Part shown: piece after piece, positions 13,085 to 49,700 of the stretch
Position numbering within the stretch: position 1 is the stretch's first letter
How the letters are laid out: every line of letters starts with the position of its first letter
Origin: Romanomermis culicivorax
Lineage: Eukaryota; Nematoda; Enoplea; Mermithida; Mermithidae
Length of the DNA: 64,000 bases
Direction of reading: 5' to 3'
Assembly (NCBI GenBank): GCA_963922205.1
Contig: CAWUHX010000045.1
Coordinates: 310,001 to 374,000, forward strand
Program-made: the position numbers and the translations under genes
Notes under the pieces: model-generated
Told to the model about the DNA's origin: nothing
What the model saw: only the letters and a program-made list of their open reading frames with translations
Databases searched by the model: none

Positions 13085-14478
13085 CATTATGAATGAATGA
13101 ATGGATTTATTACTTGCATTAGAAAAAATAAACAACGATGACAGTCAATGGAAATAAATATAATTTGAGCGGTAATTACAAGAAAAGAAAACAAATACAA
13201 AATTGTTACAATAGTGAACAAAATGCGAAAAAACCATATTAAAGATGTGACGATAGGCGAAAAATAATTACAGTAAATCATGCTGCAAGTAATAGGGAGC
13301 GCAGGTTACTATGCGTAACAGAACTAACGCGCCCCCCCCCAAGATACCTTGAAAAATCTATTTTTGACACCATAGTTTTAAAGGCCTGTAGATTGGAAGA
13401 ACTAATAATATCATTTGGGATGTCGTTCCATATGTTTACATATCTGTTGGAGAAATCATAAAGCCTTGCATTTGTTTTGGCTTTACCAGTAATCAGTTTG
13501 TAGTCATTTTTACGGCGAGTACAGTCAGAACTGCTGCTAATGAAAAAATCTGATGGTTTAAGGCAGGATTGGTTCTTAAAGATTTGGAACGTGAGATTCA
13601 ATGCAAATAACAGTCGACGAACTTCTAGGCGTTCTATACCCAACTTTGATAAGCGCTGGTCAAAGGAAAGTTCACACTTAAAACCAAAAATTCGCTTAGT
13701 AAACCTCCTCTGAACATTTTCAACTAAGTCGATATCAGAAGCATAATAGGGATTCCAAACAGTGGAACAATACTCTAATATTGGTCTAACATAAACTGCA
13801 AAGGCACGGATAAGATTAGAGGTGTTACGAGAAGTAAATGTTTTCATTATCAAATAGCTCCGTTGGTAAGCCTTTTTAATTATATAATTGAGGTGATCCC
13901 TGAAATTTAAATTTTGGGAGATAAGTATACCAAGATCTCTAACGTATGGATTGTTGCTGGGAATAACAGAATTACCCATTGTGTAATTGTATTTTGGATT
14001 TGAAGAACCCAAATATAGAACAGTACTTTTTTCAGCAGAAATTTCTAATTTCCATTTTTTGAACCAACCAAAAATTTGATCAAGATCATCTTGGAGGATA
14101 CGTTTGTTTCTGGAACAATTAAAGATCTTAACATCATCAGCAAAAAGATAGATATCAGATTTTAGATTGTCAGGGAGATCATTGATGAATAACAAGAAAA
14201 GTGTAGGACCTAGAACACTACCCTGAGCAACACCACTAGAGACGGGAGCAAACTGAGAAGTGACATTATTGATACAGACTCTCTGGGTCCGAGTTGAGAG
14301 GAAATCTAAGATCCACTTTTCAAGAAAGCCTGAGATACCATAGGTTTTCAATTTAAGCATCAATTTTTTGTGAGAAACGGAATCAAAGGCTTTCTTGAAA
14401 TCAATGTAAATTGTGTCGATTGGCAAGCCGGAATCGATGTTTGGTCCATACATTTTTGCATTGAAGTAATTGTGTTTC
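13085..14478 (-). mobile_element. 5'-truncated CR1/jockey-type LINE with partial reverse transcriptase
   Basis: An uninterrupted minus-strand frame (about 14480 to 13278) encodes the second half of a non-LTR reverse transcriptase. It shows IYIDFKKAFDSVSH, GVAQGSVLGP and the catalytic FADD box, then the thumb region with AVYVRPILEYCSTVWNP. The endonuclease and the start of the polymerase domain are missing, as expected for 5' truncation during target-primed reverse transcription. After the stop a short 3' UTR ends in about four ATTC units near 13088, a tail style seen in CR1-like clades. It interrupts a hAT-like repeat. It has no internal stops, so it is a fairly recent insertion, but it cannot move by itself. 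Confidence 0.9.
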
Positions 14479-14547
14479 ACAAGATTTTGTTGGGAATTAT
14501 AATAATCATTATTTATTACCAAGCCCAGGCGCGGCTTTTAGCATGTC

Positions 14548-29717: not shown

Positions 29718-31123
29718 TCATTTTGGATTAGTGTACGGCTGATATCGGAAGAACGACAAAGGAATACTAATTTCTTGCGGGAATTGATCACTGTTATATG
29801 CATTTATCATCAATGAGAAACGAGCTGTCGTTACAGTAATTCTTTGCTCACTTTTGAAAAACCACATACAAAAATTGTCGTTAAAAACGGAGATTAATTC
29901 TCGATATAAGTTGAAAAATTCGGCTAAGTAAAAAGAAAAGAAAAGAAAAGAAAAGAAAAGAAAAGAAAAGAAAAGAAAAGAAAAGAAAAGAAAAGAAAAG
30001 AAAAGAAAAGAAAAGAAAAGAAAAGAAAAGAAAAGAAAAGAAAAGAAAAGAAAAGAAAAGAAAAGAAAAGAAAAGAAAAGAAAAGAAAAGAAAAGAAAAG
30101 AAAAGAAAAGAAAAGAAAAGAAAAGAAAAGAAAAGAAAAGAAAAGAAAAGAAAAGAAAAGAAAAGAAAAGAAAAGAAAAGAAAAGAAAAGAAAAGAAAAG
30201 AAAAGAAAAGAAAAGAAAAGAAAAGAAAAGAAAAGAAAAGAAAAGAAAAGAAAAGAAAAGAAAAGAAAAGAAAAGAAAAGAAAAGAAAAGAAAAGAAAAG
30301 AAAAGAAAAGAAAAGAAAAGAAAAGAAAAGAAAAGAAAAGAAAAGAAAAGAAAAGAAAAGAAAAGAAAAGAAAAGAATAGAAAAGAAAAGAAAAGAAAAG
30401 AAAAGAAAAGAAAAGAAAAGAAAAGAAAAGAAAAGAAAAGAAAAGAAAAGAAAAGAAAAGAAAAGAAAAGAAAAGAAAAGAAAAGAAAAGAAAAGAAAAG
30501 AAAAGAAAAGAAAAGAAAAGAAAAGAAAAGAAAAGAAAAGAAAAGAAAAGAAAAGAAAAGAAAAGAAAAGAAAAGAAAATAAAAAAGGAACACAAGTTGT
30601 GAACACGGGAAATTGTTTTTTTCATTTTGAAGTTATTTTCGGAGTGAGAAAAATTCCGAAGAAAAACCGATGTTCGATTAAACTTTTGATGAGTTCAAAA
30701 TCGACAGTGACTTAGTTTTTTTGCTCCCTGTGGAGCTGCGCAATGGTTACCGTGCCCACGAATACTGCAAAAGTTCCGTGCAGTTCTTTTCAAATTAGTT
30801 CAATCGAATGTATGACGAATGGAATCAGTAATGATAGTTACAGTAAGGCAATGAATACTAATGCTTAGTGTGAGCATCTCACCTTGATCCGTACCCGAAA
30901 TTTCGTCGAATATATCAGCTCTGTTGATCAAATCTGCCAATCCACCTTCAACTTTGTCTACAGTATCGATCAAATGCTGCAATTTCAACAAAATTTCTTC
31001 TTTTCGAGCGTCGTACAGCGATTTGCCTTCGTTTTTGTGCCAATCGGCCGACATCAAGGTGGAAGTGACCATCATACCGGACGAGAAAACGGCAAAAATG
31101 AAGCTTATTTTGGTGAACAACAT
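29718..31123 (-). CDS. Small secreted or membrane-anchored protein, unknown family, 2 exons
   Basis: Exon 1 (31123-30883) starts with a hydrophobic signal (FTKISFIFAVFSSGMMV). It continues into a charged helical stretch with DARKEEILLKLQHLIDTVD and ADLINRADIFDEISG, ending in phase 1 at a good GTGAGA donor. Exon 2 (29923-29718) starts after CTTAG in the matching phase with AEFFNLYRELISVFNDNF and ends in a stop, giving 148 residues. Exon 1 is convincing. Exon 2 is supported only by phase, acceptor and an open frame. The intron is mostly a pure CTTTT tract on the sense strand. I do not recognise the family. The helical N-terminus recalls the protein at 62904-63882 in style, and the two could be related. 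Confidence 0.55.
29931..30580. repeat. (AAAAG)n microsatellite, about 130 units
   Basis: 650 bp of AAAAG on the plus strand (CTTTT on the minus strand) with a single substitution, an A to T at 30378. It lies wholly in the intron of the gene at 29718-31123 and stops 7 bp before the proposed acceptor. The long FSFLF open frames across it are artefacts. The purity points to recent expansion. Confidence 0.98.
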
Positions 31124-39986: not shown

Positions 39987-41850
39987 ATGGATGCATTGAA
40001 TATCGGTAAGAAACCAAATTTTGTTAGTGTTAATATTAATGATATTATAAACGCACCATATGACTCGCCCTGGTTTAAGTAACTTGATAATGAGTATGGC
40101 GTGAAAGTTGACCTAGCTGAACAAAGAGGCGTTAACAGCAGCATTATAAAATTGTTGTTGAAAGCTTGAAAAATTCTAAGAAAAGATTTAAGAATATAGA
40201 CACCTTTATGTTCAAGTTGCCCGTCCCTGATGAAAAGTCTACTGTAATGAATGATGATAGTAGTGTTCCGAAACAATTTTTTGGTCCTACTGATAAAACT
40301 GATCCAAACTTATCTGAGTCAGAAGATGAAGAGTCTACTAGTGCACATGTAAAAGCAACTGATCATCTTTTCACTCATAAAAATCTGAACACTGAACTTG
40401 TGTCTATGAAACACTTCGAGGAAATGATAACCGAATTAAAGGTAAGTAGTGTTGAACTGAAGCAGATCTTTAGATCTCACTTCGTTGAATTTGCTCAGCT
40501 GAAAGACGTCTTCTACAATTTTAAAACTGCCATGGAACTCGACATCGAATTTGTTCTATCTGATGAGTTCAGTAAAATTCTTTTGAAAAAATCTCGAACT
40601 TTCTCTGATTTGAAACACAATTTTGAATCACGTGTGAATTAAACCCAAGGTTCTATCGATCGTCTCAATAACATGCGTAGGGATTTGTTCTCGAAGATTG
40701 ATGGTCACGTTTCGACTTTGTATTCTGCTGTCGATTCGAACAGATCAGAGATCAAAAAAATTCAGTCCCAACTTTGTTAAAAGAATCTCGATTCAGTTGA
40801 TGATGATGATGTTAAAAACATTTCTGGGCCTTCTCAAGCAAATCTTGAGACTCCCATGCACAATTCTCATGCTAAACAATTCAAGTTCGATTCGCCAAAT
40901 TAAACAAATTTGTCACATACTGATAATGATAATTTCAAGGTTCCGTGTCAATTCAAGTGTTGTAATGGTTCTTCTCCTGAAGAATTTCTTGAATTGTTGG
41001 CCAATCTCGAACGTGCAGCTCATATTTCAGACTGGTCTGATGAGTATAAATGTTGGCTTGTAGTTAACTTAACTGAAGATCGTACAGCTTCTATCCTTGA
41101 TTCTATGGAGTTAGATTGTCAGAAAGATTGGACAAAACTTAAACAGGAGCTGGTTCAAAAATTAGTTCCATTCCAGCATTTTGACAGACTCAAAAATGAG
41201 TTGCGTCAAAGAGGTCAAAAACTTGATGAATGCATTCTAGATTTTTTGAAAGATTTCAGAGAAAAAGCTAGAAATGCTTACATAAGCAAAAAACCTAGTT
41301 TTGATGAATCAGAATTGGTCAATTTGTATATCCAAGCTCTGTGTGATGAAAGTCATGCCTAGAACTGTTCAAACAGAAATGGGCAACCTTGGATGAAGCA
41401 ATTAACTTTGCTGAAAACGAAATTTCGCTCCATCAGTTAGCTAAACTCCGAAACTCATGTTTATTTTCTACGAAAGATTTTGAGGGTATTGGTAAAACTA
41501 GCTCACCTAAGAAAGATTTTGAATCCAGGCAAAATATACCATTTGGTGCCTGTAAACGTAACCAAAATCAATCTTTTTCATTCCAAAATCCTAATCTTTT
41601 ATAACAAAATTCTAAAAATTTTCATGGTCCTACATCGTCCGATTCCAAATGTTTTGGGTGTAATCAGCCAGGCCACTATAAAAAAGAGTGTCCAAATATT
41701 AGTCAGCCACGTCTGTCTGTTTGTTTCAATTGTAATGGCGAAGGGCATAGAGCTTATCAGTGTCCGAGCACCTGGACAAAATCCTGGAACTTCTCATGCT
41801 ACAAATTCGAGACCTACAACAAATTCTAATTCTAACAGTACTTATTGAGC
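39987..41850 (+). pseudogene. gag pseudogene of the Gypsy-type element
   Basis: A gag-like frame starts at the ATG at 39987 and soon meets stops. It continues through frame changes (40166-40639, 40910-41359). The middle has the usual retrotransposon gag capsid pattern around EEFLELLANLERAA, SDEYKCWLVVNL and LKNELRQRGQKLDECI. Near the end are two CCHC zinc knuckles, CFGCNQPGHYKKEC from 41650 and CFNCNGEGHRAYQC shortly after. At least five in-frame stops and two frame changes make it non-functional. The first part (40166-40640) is acidic and helical. Confidence 0.8.
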
Positions 41851-42027
41851 AAATCACCGATTTCTCTCTGCCTTTGATGTTATTGCTGAATAATCTTCAG
41901 CTGTGAAACATGCTAAAACAAAGTTACATGCTAATATCTATGTTCATGGTGGTGAAAGCATGTTGAGAGTGGCCAAAGCAGCCACCTCAACTACGAATTG
42001 TTGCAAAAAGAGAGCACCTTTCTCGCT

Positions 42028-42101
42028 GCTCGGTTGGCTCAGCTGGTTAGAGCGTGCGGATGGTAGCCGCAAGGTCCTGGGTTCAAGTCCCAGACCGAGC
42101 C
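42028..42101 (+). tRNA. tRNA-Thr(GGT)-like unit in mini-LTR 1
   Basis: It folds as a full cloverleaf: acceptor GCTCGGT/ACCGAGC, D stem GCTC/GAGC, anticodon stem TGCGG/CCGCA with loop ATGGTAG (T33, anticodon GGT), T stem CTGGG/CCCAG with loop TTCAAGT. The A box TGGCTCAGCTGG (42035-42046) and B box GGTTCAAGTCC (42080-42090) are intact. A TTTT terminator lies at 42106-42109. The discriminator base would be C, which is unusual. Because it sits in an LTR and GGT is rare as a eukaryotic Thr anticodon, a transposon-borne tRNA-like gene is more likely than a working host tRNA. Confidence 0.6.
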
Positions 42102-42256
42102 TAACTTTTACTGAAGCCCCGAGTGGCGGGAAGAGGTTGCCTCAACACTGGTGGCCCTTGACGGTCCGTCAAACTCGACGGCGGAGGGGTGTTGAGAGTG
42201 GCCAAAGCAGCCACCTCAACTACGAATTGTTGCAAAAAGAGAGCGCCTTTCCCGCT

Positions 42257-42330
42257 GCTCGGTTGGCTCAGTTGGTTAGAGCGTGCGGACGGTAGCCGCA
42301 AGGTCCTGGGTTCAAGTCCCAGACCGAGCC
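42257..42330 (+). tRNA. tRNA-like unit in mini-LTR 2
   Basis: Same cloverleaf as the first copy with all stems paired, A and B boxes intact and the downstream TTTT preserved. The anticodon loop reads ACGGTAG, so the normally invariant T33 is C. That argues against use in translation, while the polymerase III promoter is kept. Confidence 0.55.
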
Positions 42331-42485
42331 TAACTTTTACTGAAGCCCCGAGTGGCGGGAAGAGGTTGCCTCAACACTGGTGGCCCTTGACGGTCCGTCA
42401 AACTCGACGGCGGAGGGATGTTGAGAGTGGCCAAAGCAGCCACCTCAACTACGAATTGTTGCAAAAAGAGAGCGCCTTTCCCGCT

Positions 42486-42559
42486 GCTCTGGTAGCTCAG
42501 TTGGTTAGAGCGTGCGGACGGTAGCCGCAAGGTCCTGGGTTCAAGTCCCAGACCAAGCC
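42486..42559 (+). pseudogene. tRNA-like unit in mini-LTR 3, acceptor stem broken
   Basis: D, anticodon and T arms are kept (loop ACGGTAG), but the acceptor strands GCTCTGG and ACCAAGC no longer pair well. The surrounding LTR also has the most changes. Of the three it is the least tRNA-like. Confidence 0.55.
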
Positions 42560-42611
42560 TAACTTTTACTGAAGCCCCGAGTAGCCGGGAAAAGGTTGCC
42601 TCAACAAGCAA

Positions 42612-43750
42612 AACTCGATGACCCTTGTAGACAATAGGAGCTTATGGAACATTATCCCTTTAGATTTTCTCCAGCTTTTACAAGACAAAGGCGATAAATT
42701 TGTTTATAAGTCGACCAATATCACGAGTATTAAGAGATTATCAGCAAAACTTATTGCAGTTCTGAGTGAAGTTTTCACTGCAATCACATTGGGCAAAGGT
42801 CATAATTCGTTCGCTTTCAAAACGTCATTCCTACTTGTTAAAACCCTGCCTTACAAAATCTTGCTGGGTGCAGAGGTCATGTCAGATGGTAACATATTTG
42901 TCGATATTCCTCAACGGTTGTTCTGAGTAATTTGTCTGAATAGTCGCGAAATTCAAATTCCTCATCTTTTGTCTGTTCTATAACTTGTGAAAGTACTGTA
43001 CTCGTTCTACCAAGTGCAATAGTCTACGCTTATGGCCTAGCCGATGAAAGAGTAGATGGTGTCACTGGTTTAATGGAAAGCATTTCAAATTTTTCAACAA
43101 AAGATGACTTCTGTGGTGCGAATTCATTTGTGGAAGTCAGGAATGGATGCATTCCTGTCATGTTTGTGAATTTCGGAAGAAACGCGTTGTTGTGTGAAAA
43201 AGGTACAGTGGTAAGAATGTTATTTCCACTGGACCAGGAAAGTGTTGTCGCTCGAGCTAGTTGTTCTGCCGGCTTAGCCAATGTTGTGGCACAAGTAAGT
43301 GGGTCCCTCCCAGATAAGGAACAGGGTATTCCAGTGTGTTCTTCACAGTGCACAATGAATGAACATTGCAGACAGGGTTCGTTGAGTCAGACGCCTGTGG
43401 AAGCCAGTGGGACTGATAAACAGATTCTGGTGGAGGGTTGTCAGGATGACCCAATATTTTGCAAAATACTATCTTCCTCCACTGGAATGGATTCAGTTTT
43501 GAATGAAGTTGATAAAAATAAGCTCGTGGCATTTTTGAAACAGAATTCTGATCTGTTTACAGAACTAACAGGTAGAATTGGTCATACCAATGTTGTGAAA
43601 CACAATATTGATACAGGTAACTCGAGTCCATCTGTGCAAACTTCAGCCGGAGTTTGTCCATCTGAGCTTATTTATGGATGAAAACCAATGTTTCCTGTGG
43701 ATCAAATTTTGAGAACCACAATTGATACATCCATAGAAGGTCCATAGGAT
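42612..43750 (+). pseudogene. Protease and internally deleted pol remnant of the Gypsy-type element
   Basis: The frame from 42618 resembles a retropepsin region (TLVDNRSLWNIIPLDF, later YKILLGAEVMSDGNIF), with the usual D-T/S-G changed to DNR. The frame at 43073-43681 is the linker before reverse transcriptase (DLFTELTGRIGHTNVVKHNI, then DTGNSSP). It passes directly into GVCPSELIYG and FPVDQIL, which belong to the C-terminal part of integrase. The breakpoint lies near 43640. The deletion removes about 2-3 kb of normal pol. Stops at 43679 and 43746 follow. Confidence 0.75.
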
Positions 43751-46736: not shown

Positions 46737-49700
46737 TCAGTCTTTTGTTGCTCCGTTAGGCGATGTAAATTGCAGACGTTTGCTATAATTTTCTCGTTGC
46801 TTTTCTAGCATCTCTTTTTTAACCGGATAACGTTTCAGTTGACCGTCCCTGATAAAAAACGGAGAAAGTTCAAGACGATAGTCAAGGGAGAAGAGGTTAA
46901 ATTTTATCTTTAACTAGAGACTTTCTTAGTTTAGAATATCTGTACGGAAATTGAGAAAATAAAATTATCTAAAATACCGAACAAGACTTACCAGTCTAGA
47001 TCAACAAGACCACCAGCGGCAGCAATTTCTCTTTTGACGCGATTTGCAAATTGTATGGCGGATTCTGATTCCTTAAAACGAGAAGCACAGTTTATTCTAT
47101 AACTTTCGACGAATAAAATCACTGGAGTTACGAGTAAATGTTGGACTATTTTTTCTAAAACTACCGAACTCGAATAAGGCGATTGAATAATTCTTTTAAT
47201 CTTTCTGTTGTCAGTTTTGGATAAGAAAGATAGTTGGTGATTTTTGGACGAACATAATAAATTTTAGACACTTGGGAACAATATATTTTAACGCGGGCTT
47301 TTCAGGTCAATTTTCCAGCTTAAAAATGTCCACAGCCGCTTAATTGGCGAGTTTTCGGTCTTATTAGGATATTATGTTTCTTCTACATTTGATTACCATG
47401 AAAAACAATGAGGAAGAGAATAGACCAGAATGCGGCATCCAGTTACTTAACTCCTCATTTATGGAAGAACAGAAGAAGAAAAAATTCTACGTTTACTTTC
47501 TTTTTCTGAGCTATAGAAAAAATTACATTTTTCACTATGCTCAAGTAAAATGGTGGATTATCGATTAAAAAATGAAATGAGGCACTGTGGAAGCACGAAT
47601 CCATCAAAGATAACTGACACTGTACAAACATGATTGGCTTCGCGGTTTAGCTACTTTACGGTAGCTAATTAAAATCTAACAGATAAGGCAGCACGAAGCG
47701 CCGCAAAGTTTCGAAATTTTCACCTGCTAAAATGCTCCAAAACATATCTTGAGAACCCAAAACTTTTTTCACTATTACCTGGAAAACTGTGCTCTTAAAT
47801 TTCAAAAACAGCATTTTAAATTGATGAAATGGTTTGATGATTTTTTTTTGATGATCACACGAATTTTATAAAACTGAGTGTTAGTTTATACAGATTCTAT
47901 GCTCACTAATCTGGTCATAGGCGGCAAATACCAAACGTCGACCACTATCGCCCAACTGGTCATCATCATGATGATATATTGAAAATAGGTTTGTAGCGAA
48001 CTATTCCAAAAAGCATCACCGAAACGCGGATCGTACTTTACGGCTACCGGGTATACTGTAGCTCCGATTTCGAAAGATCCTTTTTTGAACATCATCACAG
48101 ACGTGTTGTTTATACAAGTGCCTTCGGGAAAAATTAAAATCGGTAATTTTGTCGAATCTTCGGCGTGCGAGCGCAACCTGATGAATGCAGAACGTCGAAA
48201 TTAAATTTAACTTAGCAATGGAGCGATTCAAATTGTAATTTTGCAGATACAAGACTACATTGTTTACATCTTAATGGTAACGCAAAATTAACTGGAAAAT
48301 GAGATAATTATTAACATATTTGGCTTAAATTTTAATAGTTATAGCTAAAAAATACATAAAGTCGAATTCAAACATTTGAAAAAATCTGATTTTTTTCACG
48401 TCACAGTTCCCATTCAAAAAAGTTACTTTCTACTGACGGCTGATCGATCCTCAAGTTCCGATCGATCGAACCATATGTGGGAACTCGCGCGGCTCAAAGA
48501 ACGTTGAATAAGACCTAATAAACCTCCGTGCTTTTGACCAACCTGGATGAAAAAGCAGAGTGAAATTCACGAGAAAATAGCAATATATAAGCTTTTAATA
48601 GTGCAGTAAAACACCATTACTTTGGAAAGTTTTCAAATCAAAATATTAATAGTTTTTAATAACCGAGGACGAAGTTTCATTATTGAAAAATTCATACCAG
48701 GGCATAACAATTATCTTGAGCCAATATTAAAACGTCGATAGGTGAAGTGTGATTAGCTACGCAAATTCCGCCGCCTTTAGCCGAGTTCTCTCTAAATACA
48801 CGAAACAATTATAATTACAGGGTTGGATTTAAAATCATTTGACATTGGCAACCTAAACATTTACATTTCAAGTCGTACGTAAATAACAAAGGAACAAAAA
48901 AAATACCGGGTGAAATTTCTCAGAAAATTATAATCTATGGAACTTTTGAACGGTCATTAGATATAACAGAATTCTATTTAATATTCTGCAAGTCGCATCT
49001 GTAGTATTGGATATACCTGTTATGAAAAGTAGCAATAACGGAGACGGCTCGGGCCAAAACGCGATAACACATCACGCTAATATGCCAATTTAAATATCTT
49101 TTTATTCTAAAGTATGAAATTTTTTCAATATGGAGAAAGAATTCAAAGGTTAAATAAAAAACTGTTTTTCAATTTATTAGTCGAAGAAAATTCATTTCTT
49201 TTGAGATGAGACGTTTTAAAAAAATTTATGGAAAGTGTCACACTTTCTGGTACTCCGAAAATTTCAGCAGACCTTATTATGCGGCTTGAAGTTTAAAAAA
49301 CAAGTTAAACACACGAAAAATATAGAATGCTCACTCGCCGTCTGGAACATATCCAATAAACGCTGTAGCAACGACTAGGAACGTGAGGCCAACACTCAAA
49401 ATAATGAGTCTTAAGAAGACAACGTAAATTTTCGAAACAGGTCAAAATCTCAAAAGTAAAAGACGAACCGAAAAGGCAACAAAACGGCATACCGGAATAT
49501 AAAGCCCAAACACCAAATAATGGTCAAACGCAGACTGAAGTTGAAAAAATGAAATTCGTGAATAAACATCCGAATATGGAAATTTCATTTGCACCTCACG
49601 TATTGATACCCGTAACTTGTTCTTGAAAGCAAATTCCACGAAGTCAATTCTTCTGCTGTGAATCGCATAGTCACTTCGTCTTCGATGATAGATTCGATGC

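Follow-up and report, generated by a model that had tools for sequence, protein, structure and literature searches.

A 64,000-nucleotide stretch of the genome of the mermithid nematode Romanomermis culicivorax (contig CAWUHX010000045.1, positions 310,001 to 374,000; hereafter the window) contains a short non-coding retroelement with a tRNA-like sequence in each of its long terminal repeats (LTRs). The anatomy of this copy and the copies found elsewhere in the genome bear out an earlier note on the same DNA, which had described it as a miniature LTR retrotransposon. Novelty as a kind of element is not supported: such terminal-repeat retrotransposons in miniature (TRIMs) have already been named Helenus, according to the available part of Kojima 2024 (PMC10886601). 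The conclusion that the sequence represents an abundant new Helenus-type family, and not a new kind of element, is well supported. Very probably it is a Helenus-type TRIM (TRIMp3) with the unit LTR(187)-spacer(42)-LTR(187), which would be transcribed by RNA polymerase III and mobilised by the enzymes of another element, and whose tandem copies are of mixed origin.

Structure of the window copy

The window copy is a tandem of three LTRs and two spacers on the forward strand, bounded by AGCA target-site duplications at 41957..41960 and 42607..42610 (no strand assigned). LTR1 (41961..42147) and LTR2 (42190..42376) are 187 bp long and differ at 4 of 187 positions, while LTR3 (42419..42606) has 188 bp and belongs to a different LTR subtype (74G, 76A, 165A, 173A). 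All three start with TGTTGAG and end with CTCAACA. In BLAST, LTR1 is 97.9% and LTR3 96.3% identical to LTR2, and Tandem Repeats Finder reports the array with a score of 1208. Coordinates and BLAST thus agree on the layout of TG...CA repeats, spacers and AGCA bounds that the earlier note had given. The two spacers (42148..42189 and 42377..42418) differ only in their last base and each has the claimed 42 bp; their start has to be corrected to CTGGTGGCCC, with one C between the LTR end and TGG. In spacer 1, this C is followed by TGGTGGCCC at the primer-site position (42149-42157), the self-complementary 15-base palindrome TTGACGGTCCGTCAA (42158-42172; 42387-42401 in spacer 2) and a purine-rich end.

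Each LTR contains a tRNA-like sequence with the anticodon GGT, located at 42028..42101 in LTR1, 42257..42330 in LTR2 and 42486..42560 in LTR3, all on the forward strand. ARAGORN calls tRNA-Thr(GGT) in each of the three and no other tRNA in the window, and the Rfam tRNA model gives 59.7, 56.7 and 41.5 bits, respectively (cut-off 29), LTR3 having the lowest score. Reading the sequence directly identifies an A box, a B box and a TTTT at most 8 bases 3' of the tRNA in all three LTRs; in LTR1 they are found at 42035-42046, 42080-42090 and 42106..42109, the last being a possible weak polymerase III terminator. The cloverleaf with its internal boxes and nearby TTTT, as proposed in the earlier note, is therefore confirmed by two programs and by inspection.

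Copies across the genome and identity of the element

The family is present in high copy number, as closely similar copies that share LTRs, spacer and TG/CA ends, carry duplications of the target site and include solo LTRs. In the source genome (359,112,060 bases in 595 contigs), the LTR start occurs 1110 times (560 + 550) when up to two mismatches are allowed, against 0 occurrences of a reversed control pattern, which excludes chance. Exact internal LTRs, i.e., LTRs preceded by a spacer end and followed by a spacer start, number 68 genome-wide (control 0). A set of 99 loci with 248 full LTRs was read. It comprises the window and the 39 best matches of a search with the unit and the LTR (40 of 1300 candidates scored), 19 loci from the first 30 places of the LTR-start listing, 11 later places of this listing with two or more close starts, and 29 loci fetched because an internal LTR was present. 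Arrays are over-represented in this set because of how the loci were chosen. L001-L008 and many of L048-L077 turned out to be other places within loci that had already been counted, and L088 was replaced by L118, which is the same place.

Solo LTRs, two-LTR copies of about 416 bp and copies with three to seven LTRs were found. The first 30 listed places, chosen by an exact LTR start only, correspond to 23 loci by manual count, of which 7 are solo LTRs, 9 have two LTRs, 1 has three and 6 are broken. Two full LTRs without a partial one are present in 34 of 71 loci, and the two-LTR loci span 414-417 bp in 19 of 19 cases, within the Helenus range of 311-1263 bp. Of the 75 loci with complete ends, 52 have exact 4-bp duplications on either side, while left and right flanks taken from different loci match in 29 of 5550 combinations, which is the signature of LTR retrotransposon insertions made by an integrase. 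This count leaves out L111 and L112, which nearly repeat L110 on the same contig, as well as 22 more loci with cut, partial or edge-bound ends. Exact duplications occur at all copy sizes: in 5/9 loci with one LTR, 27/36 with two, 12/20 with three, 4/6 with four and 4/4 with five to seven. Within the 34 two-LTR loci, the LTR pair has a median of 6 aligned differences (range 0-27), compared with a median of 9 between loci. The family looks young, though its insertions are not uniformly fresh.

The spacer is conserved across the family, with the start CTGGTGGCCC in 73 of 75 spacers. GGAGGG lies within the last 8 spacer bases in 73 of 75 and forms a polypurine tract before the 3' LTR, as in Helenus. 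The palindrome TTGACGGTCCGTCAA is intact in 64 of 75 spacers and could let two RNAs pair. Most LTR sites hardly vary; an exception is position 173 (window 42133, 42362 and 42592), with C in 41, A in 37, G in 34 and T in 1 of 113 LTRs. Its states combine with both states of position 165, and this variation may reflect recurrent change or heavy recombination.

Some individual copies depart from the standard layout. In L025 (G000:C233:5300-8600), the second LTR breaks off at position 66, directly ahead of the tRNA-like part, with AATT on both sides of the copy. L068 (around G000:C3:2439323) is a deletion copy consisting of an LTR, some 12 bases from the beginning of the spacer and the last 17 bases of an LTR, flanked by GAAT on both sides. 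L016 (G000:C185:720716-721127, forward strand) contains a decayed older relative with the same layout, sharing 69% identity over the unit, 66% over the LTR and 90% over the spacer. Its tRNA part is no longer called, and a young three-LTR copy with the duplication CAAC is inserted at its edge.

In all 113 LTRs in which the tRNA-like part was followed, which come from 40 loci, ARAGORN recognises a tRNA, with the anticodon GGT in 108 and AGT in 5. With respect to the polymerase III boxes, GGTTCAAGTCC is found in 108 LTRs and the A-box core in 103, and CTTTTAC is also present in 108. The number of variants per 100 bp per LTR is 1.86 in the tRNA part, 1.80 upstream of it and 3.46 downstream, so that the tRNA part does not look more constrained than the sequence before it. 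For comparison with host tRNAs, 20 genes out of 38 listed were fetched, from a search in which 63 of 23,456 candidates were scored. The eight host tRNA-Thr genes among them share 49-57 of 74 bases with the tRNA-like part, the lowest value applying to tRNA-Thr(AGT) and the highest (57/74) to the tRNA-Thr(TGT) at L130. 'Thr' is therefore an anticodon reading and not a shown origin, and the derivation from tRNA-Thr suggested in the earlier note does not stand.

Two other identities of the sequence have to be weighed against a TRIM. The cloverleaf called in 113 of 113 LTRs could indicate that the element has spread functional tRNA-Thr genes, but this is very unlikely, considering the 49-57 of 74 bases shared with the eight host tRNA-Thr genes fetched, the C that follows the acceptor stem and the variation of acceptor-stem position 74 in 23 of 113 LTRs; most Helenus tRNAs were likewise judged unlikely to be functional, as stated in the accessible text of PMC10886601. 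A short interspersed nuclear element (SINE) or tRNA pseudogene family that turned into a satellite would account for the tRNA-derived sequence, the shortness and the tandem copies. Against a SINE speak the 3' ends, which are fixed at CA and neither variable nor A-rich, together with the TG/CA ends and 4-bp duplications, and against a satellite the single and two-repeat copies with their own insertion boundaries and 4-bp duplications, which leaves this explanation hardly any probability, even less than a functional gene family. Thus, the element is a TRIM and neither SINE nor satellite, because solo and two-LTR copies exist, the TG/CA ends are fixed and 4-bp duplications are present. The LTR search suggested in the earlier note accordingly returned solo and two-LTR copies with such duplications, and not the picture that the note would have ascribed to a SINE or satellite, namely tandems only, without TG/CA boundaries or duplications, or copies with variable, A-rich 3' ends.

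The following life cycle is proposed for this TRIM. Polymerase III would initiate at the first LTR's tRNA-like promoter, would sometimes read past the short TTTT and would end at the TTTT of a later LTR. The resulting RNA would carry the tRNA-like region at both ends as the repeat (R). By analogy with Kojima 2024, reverse transcriptase and integrase of another LTR element, most likely of the Gypsy type, would copy this RNA, and the borrowed enzymes would insert the copy with a 4-bp duplication.

Origin of the tandem copies

The LTR sequences within an array hold information on how it was formed. Reverse transcription of a normal template makes both LTRs equal, while a template with more than two LTRs yields equal outer LTRs and a middle LTR that retains its sequence. 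Of the 19 complete-ended three-LTR arrays, five have outer LTRs at most one difference apart (L014 0, L019 0, L020 1, L031 0, L108 1) and a middle LTR at least five, specifically 5-10, differences away from both. The odd LTR is in the middle in 5/5 of these arrays, and an odd LTR of this kind lies at the end of none (permutation p 0.004; the thresholds were set once the data were known). Exact duplications flank L014, L019, L020 and L031, but not L108. The middle LTR of L031 shows several variants common to other loci, and two variants, G106A in L014 and A138G in L022, are present in both outer LTRs, absent from the middle one and not found in any other of 71 loci. The four-LTR copy L011 has identical end LTRs. 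Because the outer LTRs are near-copies while the middle LTR is of another subtype, some tandems were probably inserted already assembled, from a multi-LTR template. Such a template could come from read-through of a tandem locus or from jumping between two RNAs, both of which would leave the same mark. Other tandems would later have been enlarged or mixed by unequal crossing-over or conversion, and both pre-assembly and later recombination seem to act.

An explanation by recombination only, in which all tandems arise after insertion via unequal crossing-over between the LTRs of a two-LTR copy, has some points in its favour and is nevertheless improbable. L021 repeats a three-LTR block, LTRs 2, 4 and 6 of L040 are identical and so are LTRs 2 and 4 of L116, all of which correspond to the duplication of units. 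The distances in the window copy are additive (4 + 7 = 11), as if LTR2 had arisen by recombination of LTR1 with LTR3 and had changed further since, and 12 of the 19 three-LTR arrays with complete ends do not have the outer pair as their closest. For the maize TRIM Wukong, recombination is inferred in the consulted portion of PMC4528315. Crossing-over would not easily produce a pair of outer LTRs with 0-1 differences that enclose a middle LTR 5-10 changes away with variants of other loci, as in L014, L019, L020, L031 and L108. These five arrays argue strongly against it as the only route, barring a conversion of the outer LTRs that spares the middle one.

Several results weigh against a Helenus-type TRIM with the proposed life cycle and partly pre-assembled tandems. 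The outer LTRs are the strictly closest pair in 7 of the 19 complete-ended three-LTR arrays (p 0.33; summed-distance p 0.28), in 6 of the 12 arrays with exact duplications (p 0.12; summed-distance p 0.16) and in 7 of the 14 arrays in which no pair is more than 12 apart (p 0.066; summed-distance p 0.02). A p value of 0.02 for the first 9 exact-duplication arrays weakened as more were added. Among the 12 exact-duplication arrays, L018, L093, L097, L099 and the window copy fail to show the pattern, and L016 gives a tie. In the window copy, the distances are 4 for LTR1-LTR2, 7 for LTR2-LTR3 and 11 for LTR1-LTR3. Since its outer LTRs differ more from each other than any other pair in it, it lacks the mark of pre-assembly and belongs among the later-recombined tandems, or has been altered since insertion. 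The earlier note had inferred recombination or template jumping from the window tandem; joined templates are supported for some copies of the family only, and the window copy does not show their mark. A clear sign that arrays multiply as arrays was also missing from the subtype counts, in which loci cut by sequence extraction may be misclassed: 16C was not enriched (8/81 internal LTRs, 5/91 LTRs of pairs and solos, p 0.39; 5/76 array ends), and the enrichment of 74G/76A was marginal (16/81 against 8/91, uncorrected p 0.048; 14/76 array ends).

Further points of this kind concern the primer and the partner element. TGG occupies the expected primer-site position, but the putative primer-site stretch CTGGTGGCCCTTGACGG matches the 20 host tRNAs fetched over at most 6 bases in a row, and the comparison of the bases after the first LTR with host tRNA 3' ends, as recommended in the earlier note, therefore yielded no matching tRNA among these 20. 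A strict pattern for tRNAs ending in GGGCC hit 4 genome places, compared with 2 for a control, none of them tRNA-Ile-like by eye. No candidate for the partner element held up among the loci read.

Three candidates were rejected. A tRNA-Ile primer, whose 3' end would fit TGGTGGCCC, was considered by analogy with bivalve Helenus and from general tRNA-Ile features, and received no support from the GGGCC-end pattern search. L068 and L074 had been considered as partners sharing the LTR, as in both an LTR is followed by primer-site bases; L068 is the deletion copy mentioned above, and L074 runs into DNA in which no element was seen.

It is a possible, though doubtful, extension that multi-LTR arrays are replicating units themselves. 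A tandem locus would be read through by polymerase III, reverse-transcribed as a whole and inserted elsewhere, the internal LTRs being passengers and the outer pair being renewed in each cycle. The same array at two unlinked sites was not seen among the loci read, which were not systematically compared in this respect. A near-identical four-LTR array with ATGA duplications is found at three places about 32-36 kb apart (L110, L111 and L112; G000:C205), which looks like a segmental duplication.

Genomic setting, known relatives and significance

The TRIM is inserted into, and is not part of, a broken Gypsy-like gag/protease remnant on the forward strand (40136..43681, outer limits approximate). 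Upstream of the TRIM, the frame 40904-41359 contains a gag domain (Pfam PF03732, E 2.4e-5) and the frame 41605-41826 two CCHC motifs recognised by eye; a protease-like stretch of the same remnant, also recognised by eye, follows downstream. Viral contigs contained no relative of the gag frame and no match to the A-box pattern. Elsewhere in the window, a 419-amino-acid open frame on the reverse strand (13278-14537; PF00078, E 8.7e-24) resembles by eye a non-LTR retrotransposon reverse transcriptase, an AAAAG repeat of about 131 units with 99% matches occupies 29930-30586, and exons on the reverse strand at 46991-48200 resemble by eye glycerol-3-phosphate acyltransferase. The reverse transcriptase matches 1683 proteins; of the 120 listed, a single one carries an organism name (Naja naja), which is not diagnostic of the host. 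A host gene at 62.9-63.9 kb had no match when treated as one exon and matched one protein when treated as two.

The comparison with known systems is based on the available portions of the papers cited. Helenus elements, described from fungi, animals and a lycophyte, are TRIMs whose LTRs are in part tRNA-derived; those of animals have 4-bp duplications and Gypsy-like primer sites (PMC10886601). They are described there as mobilised by a Gypsy element in animals or a Copia element in fungi, and their transcription by polymerase III is itself a prediction. Helenus can encode tRNA-Thr in bivalves (seven families) and fungi, and tandem arrays are mentioned for LTR-11_DR of zebrafish (PMC10886601). 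The nematode family is likened to Helenus by these described features: it is non-coding, lies within the Helenus size range and has a tRNA-derived LTR part with A and B boxes, 4-bp duplications and a polypurine tract. For the primer site, which matches a host tRNA in Helenus, TGG is in the right place here, with at most 6 bases in a row matching any of the 20 host tRNAs fetched. The plant element Cassandra (PMC7215508) likewise has a small-RNA promoter inside its TRIM LTRs and forms long tandem arrays, but its promoter is that of 5S rRNA instead of a tRNA-like one; in the text available, Gao 2016 (PMC4717578) reports 5S sequence from no TRIM except Cassandra. Other plant TRIMs (Gao 2016, PMC4717578; Wukong, PMC4528315), for which the portions available mention no tRNA, also occur as tandems of at least three LTRs, and the examples in Gao 2016 are flanked by one target duplication; the duplications in the plant examples (PMC4717578, PMC4528315) have 5 bp in contrast to the 4 bp observed here. 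Sabot and Schulman 2007 (PMC1950507) applied the same criterion of an internal third LTR, outer LTRs that are alike and a flanking duplication to four grass cases, which are large retrotransposons (Angela, Squiq, Opie) and not short non-coding units. A 2026 meeting report (PMC12859917) mentions Helenus in passing, and among the matches listed in the mainly non-subscription literature, no original description of Helenus-type elements besides Kojima 2024 was found.

The family therefore adds one abundant member to a class with one original description in the literature searched. It also provides new evidence on how TRIM tandems arise and a useful data set on their formation. For Cassandra, the route was posed by Kalendar 2020 (PMC7215508, available part) as a question with two candidates; in the nematode, five arrays favour assembly before or during reverse transcription, and others later recombination. 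With more than 1000 LTR starts in one genome, a full count could settle this question. As a practical caution, programs that search such a genome for tRNAs may report hundreds of spurious tRNA-Thr genes. If arrays were indeed replicating units, the short TTTT, and perhaps the spacer palindrome by pairing two RNAs, would make tandem templates a regular occurrence, and satellite-like arrays would grow from TRIM insertions.
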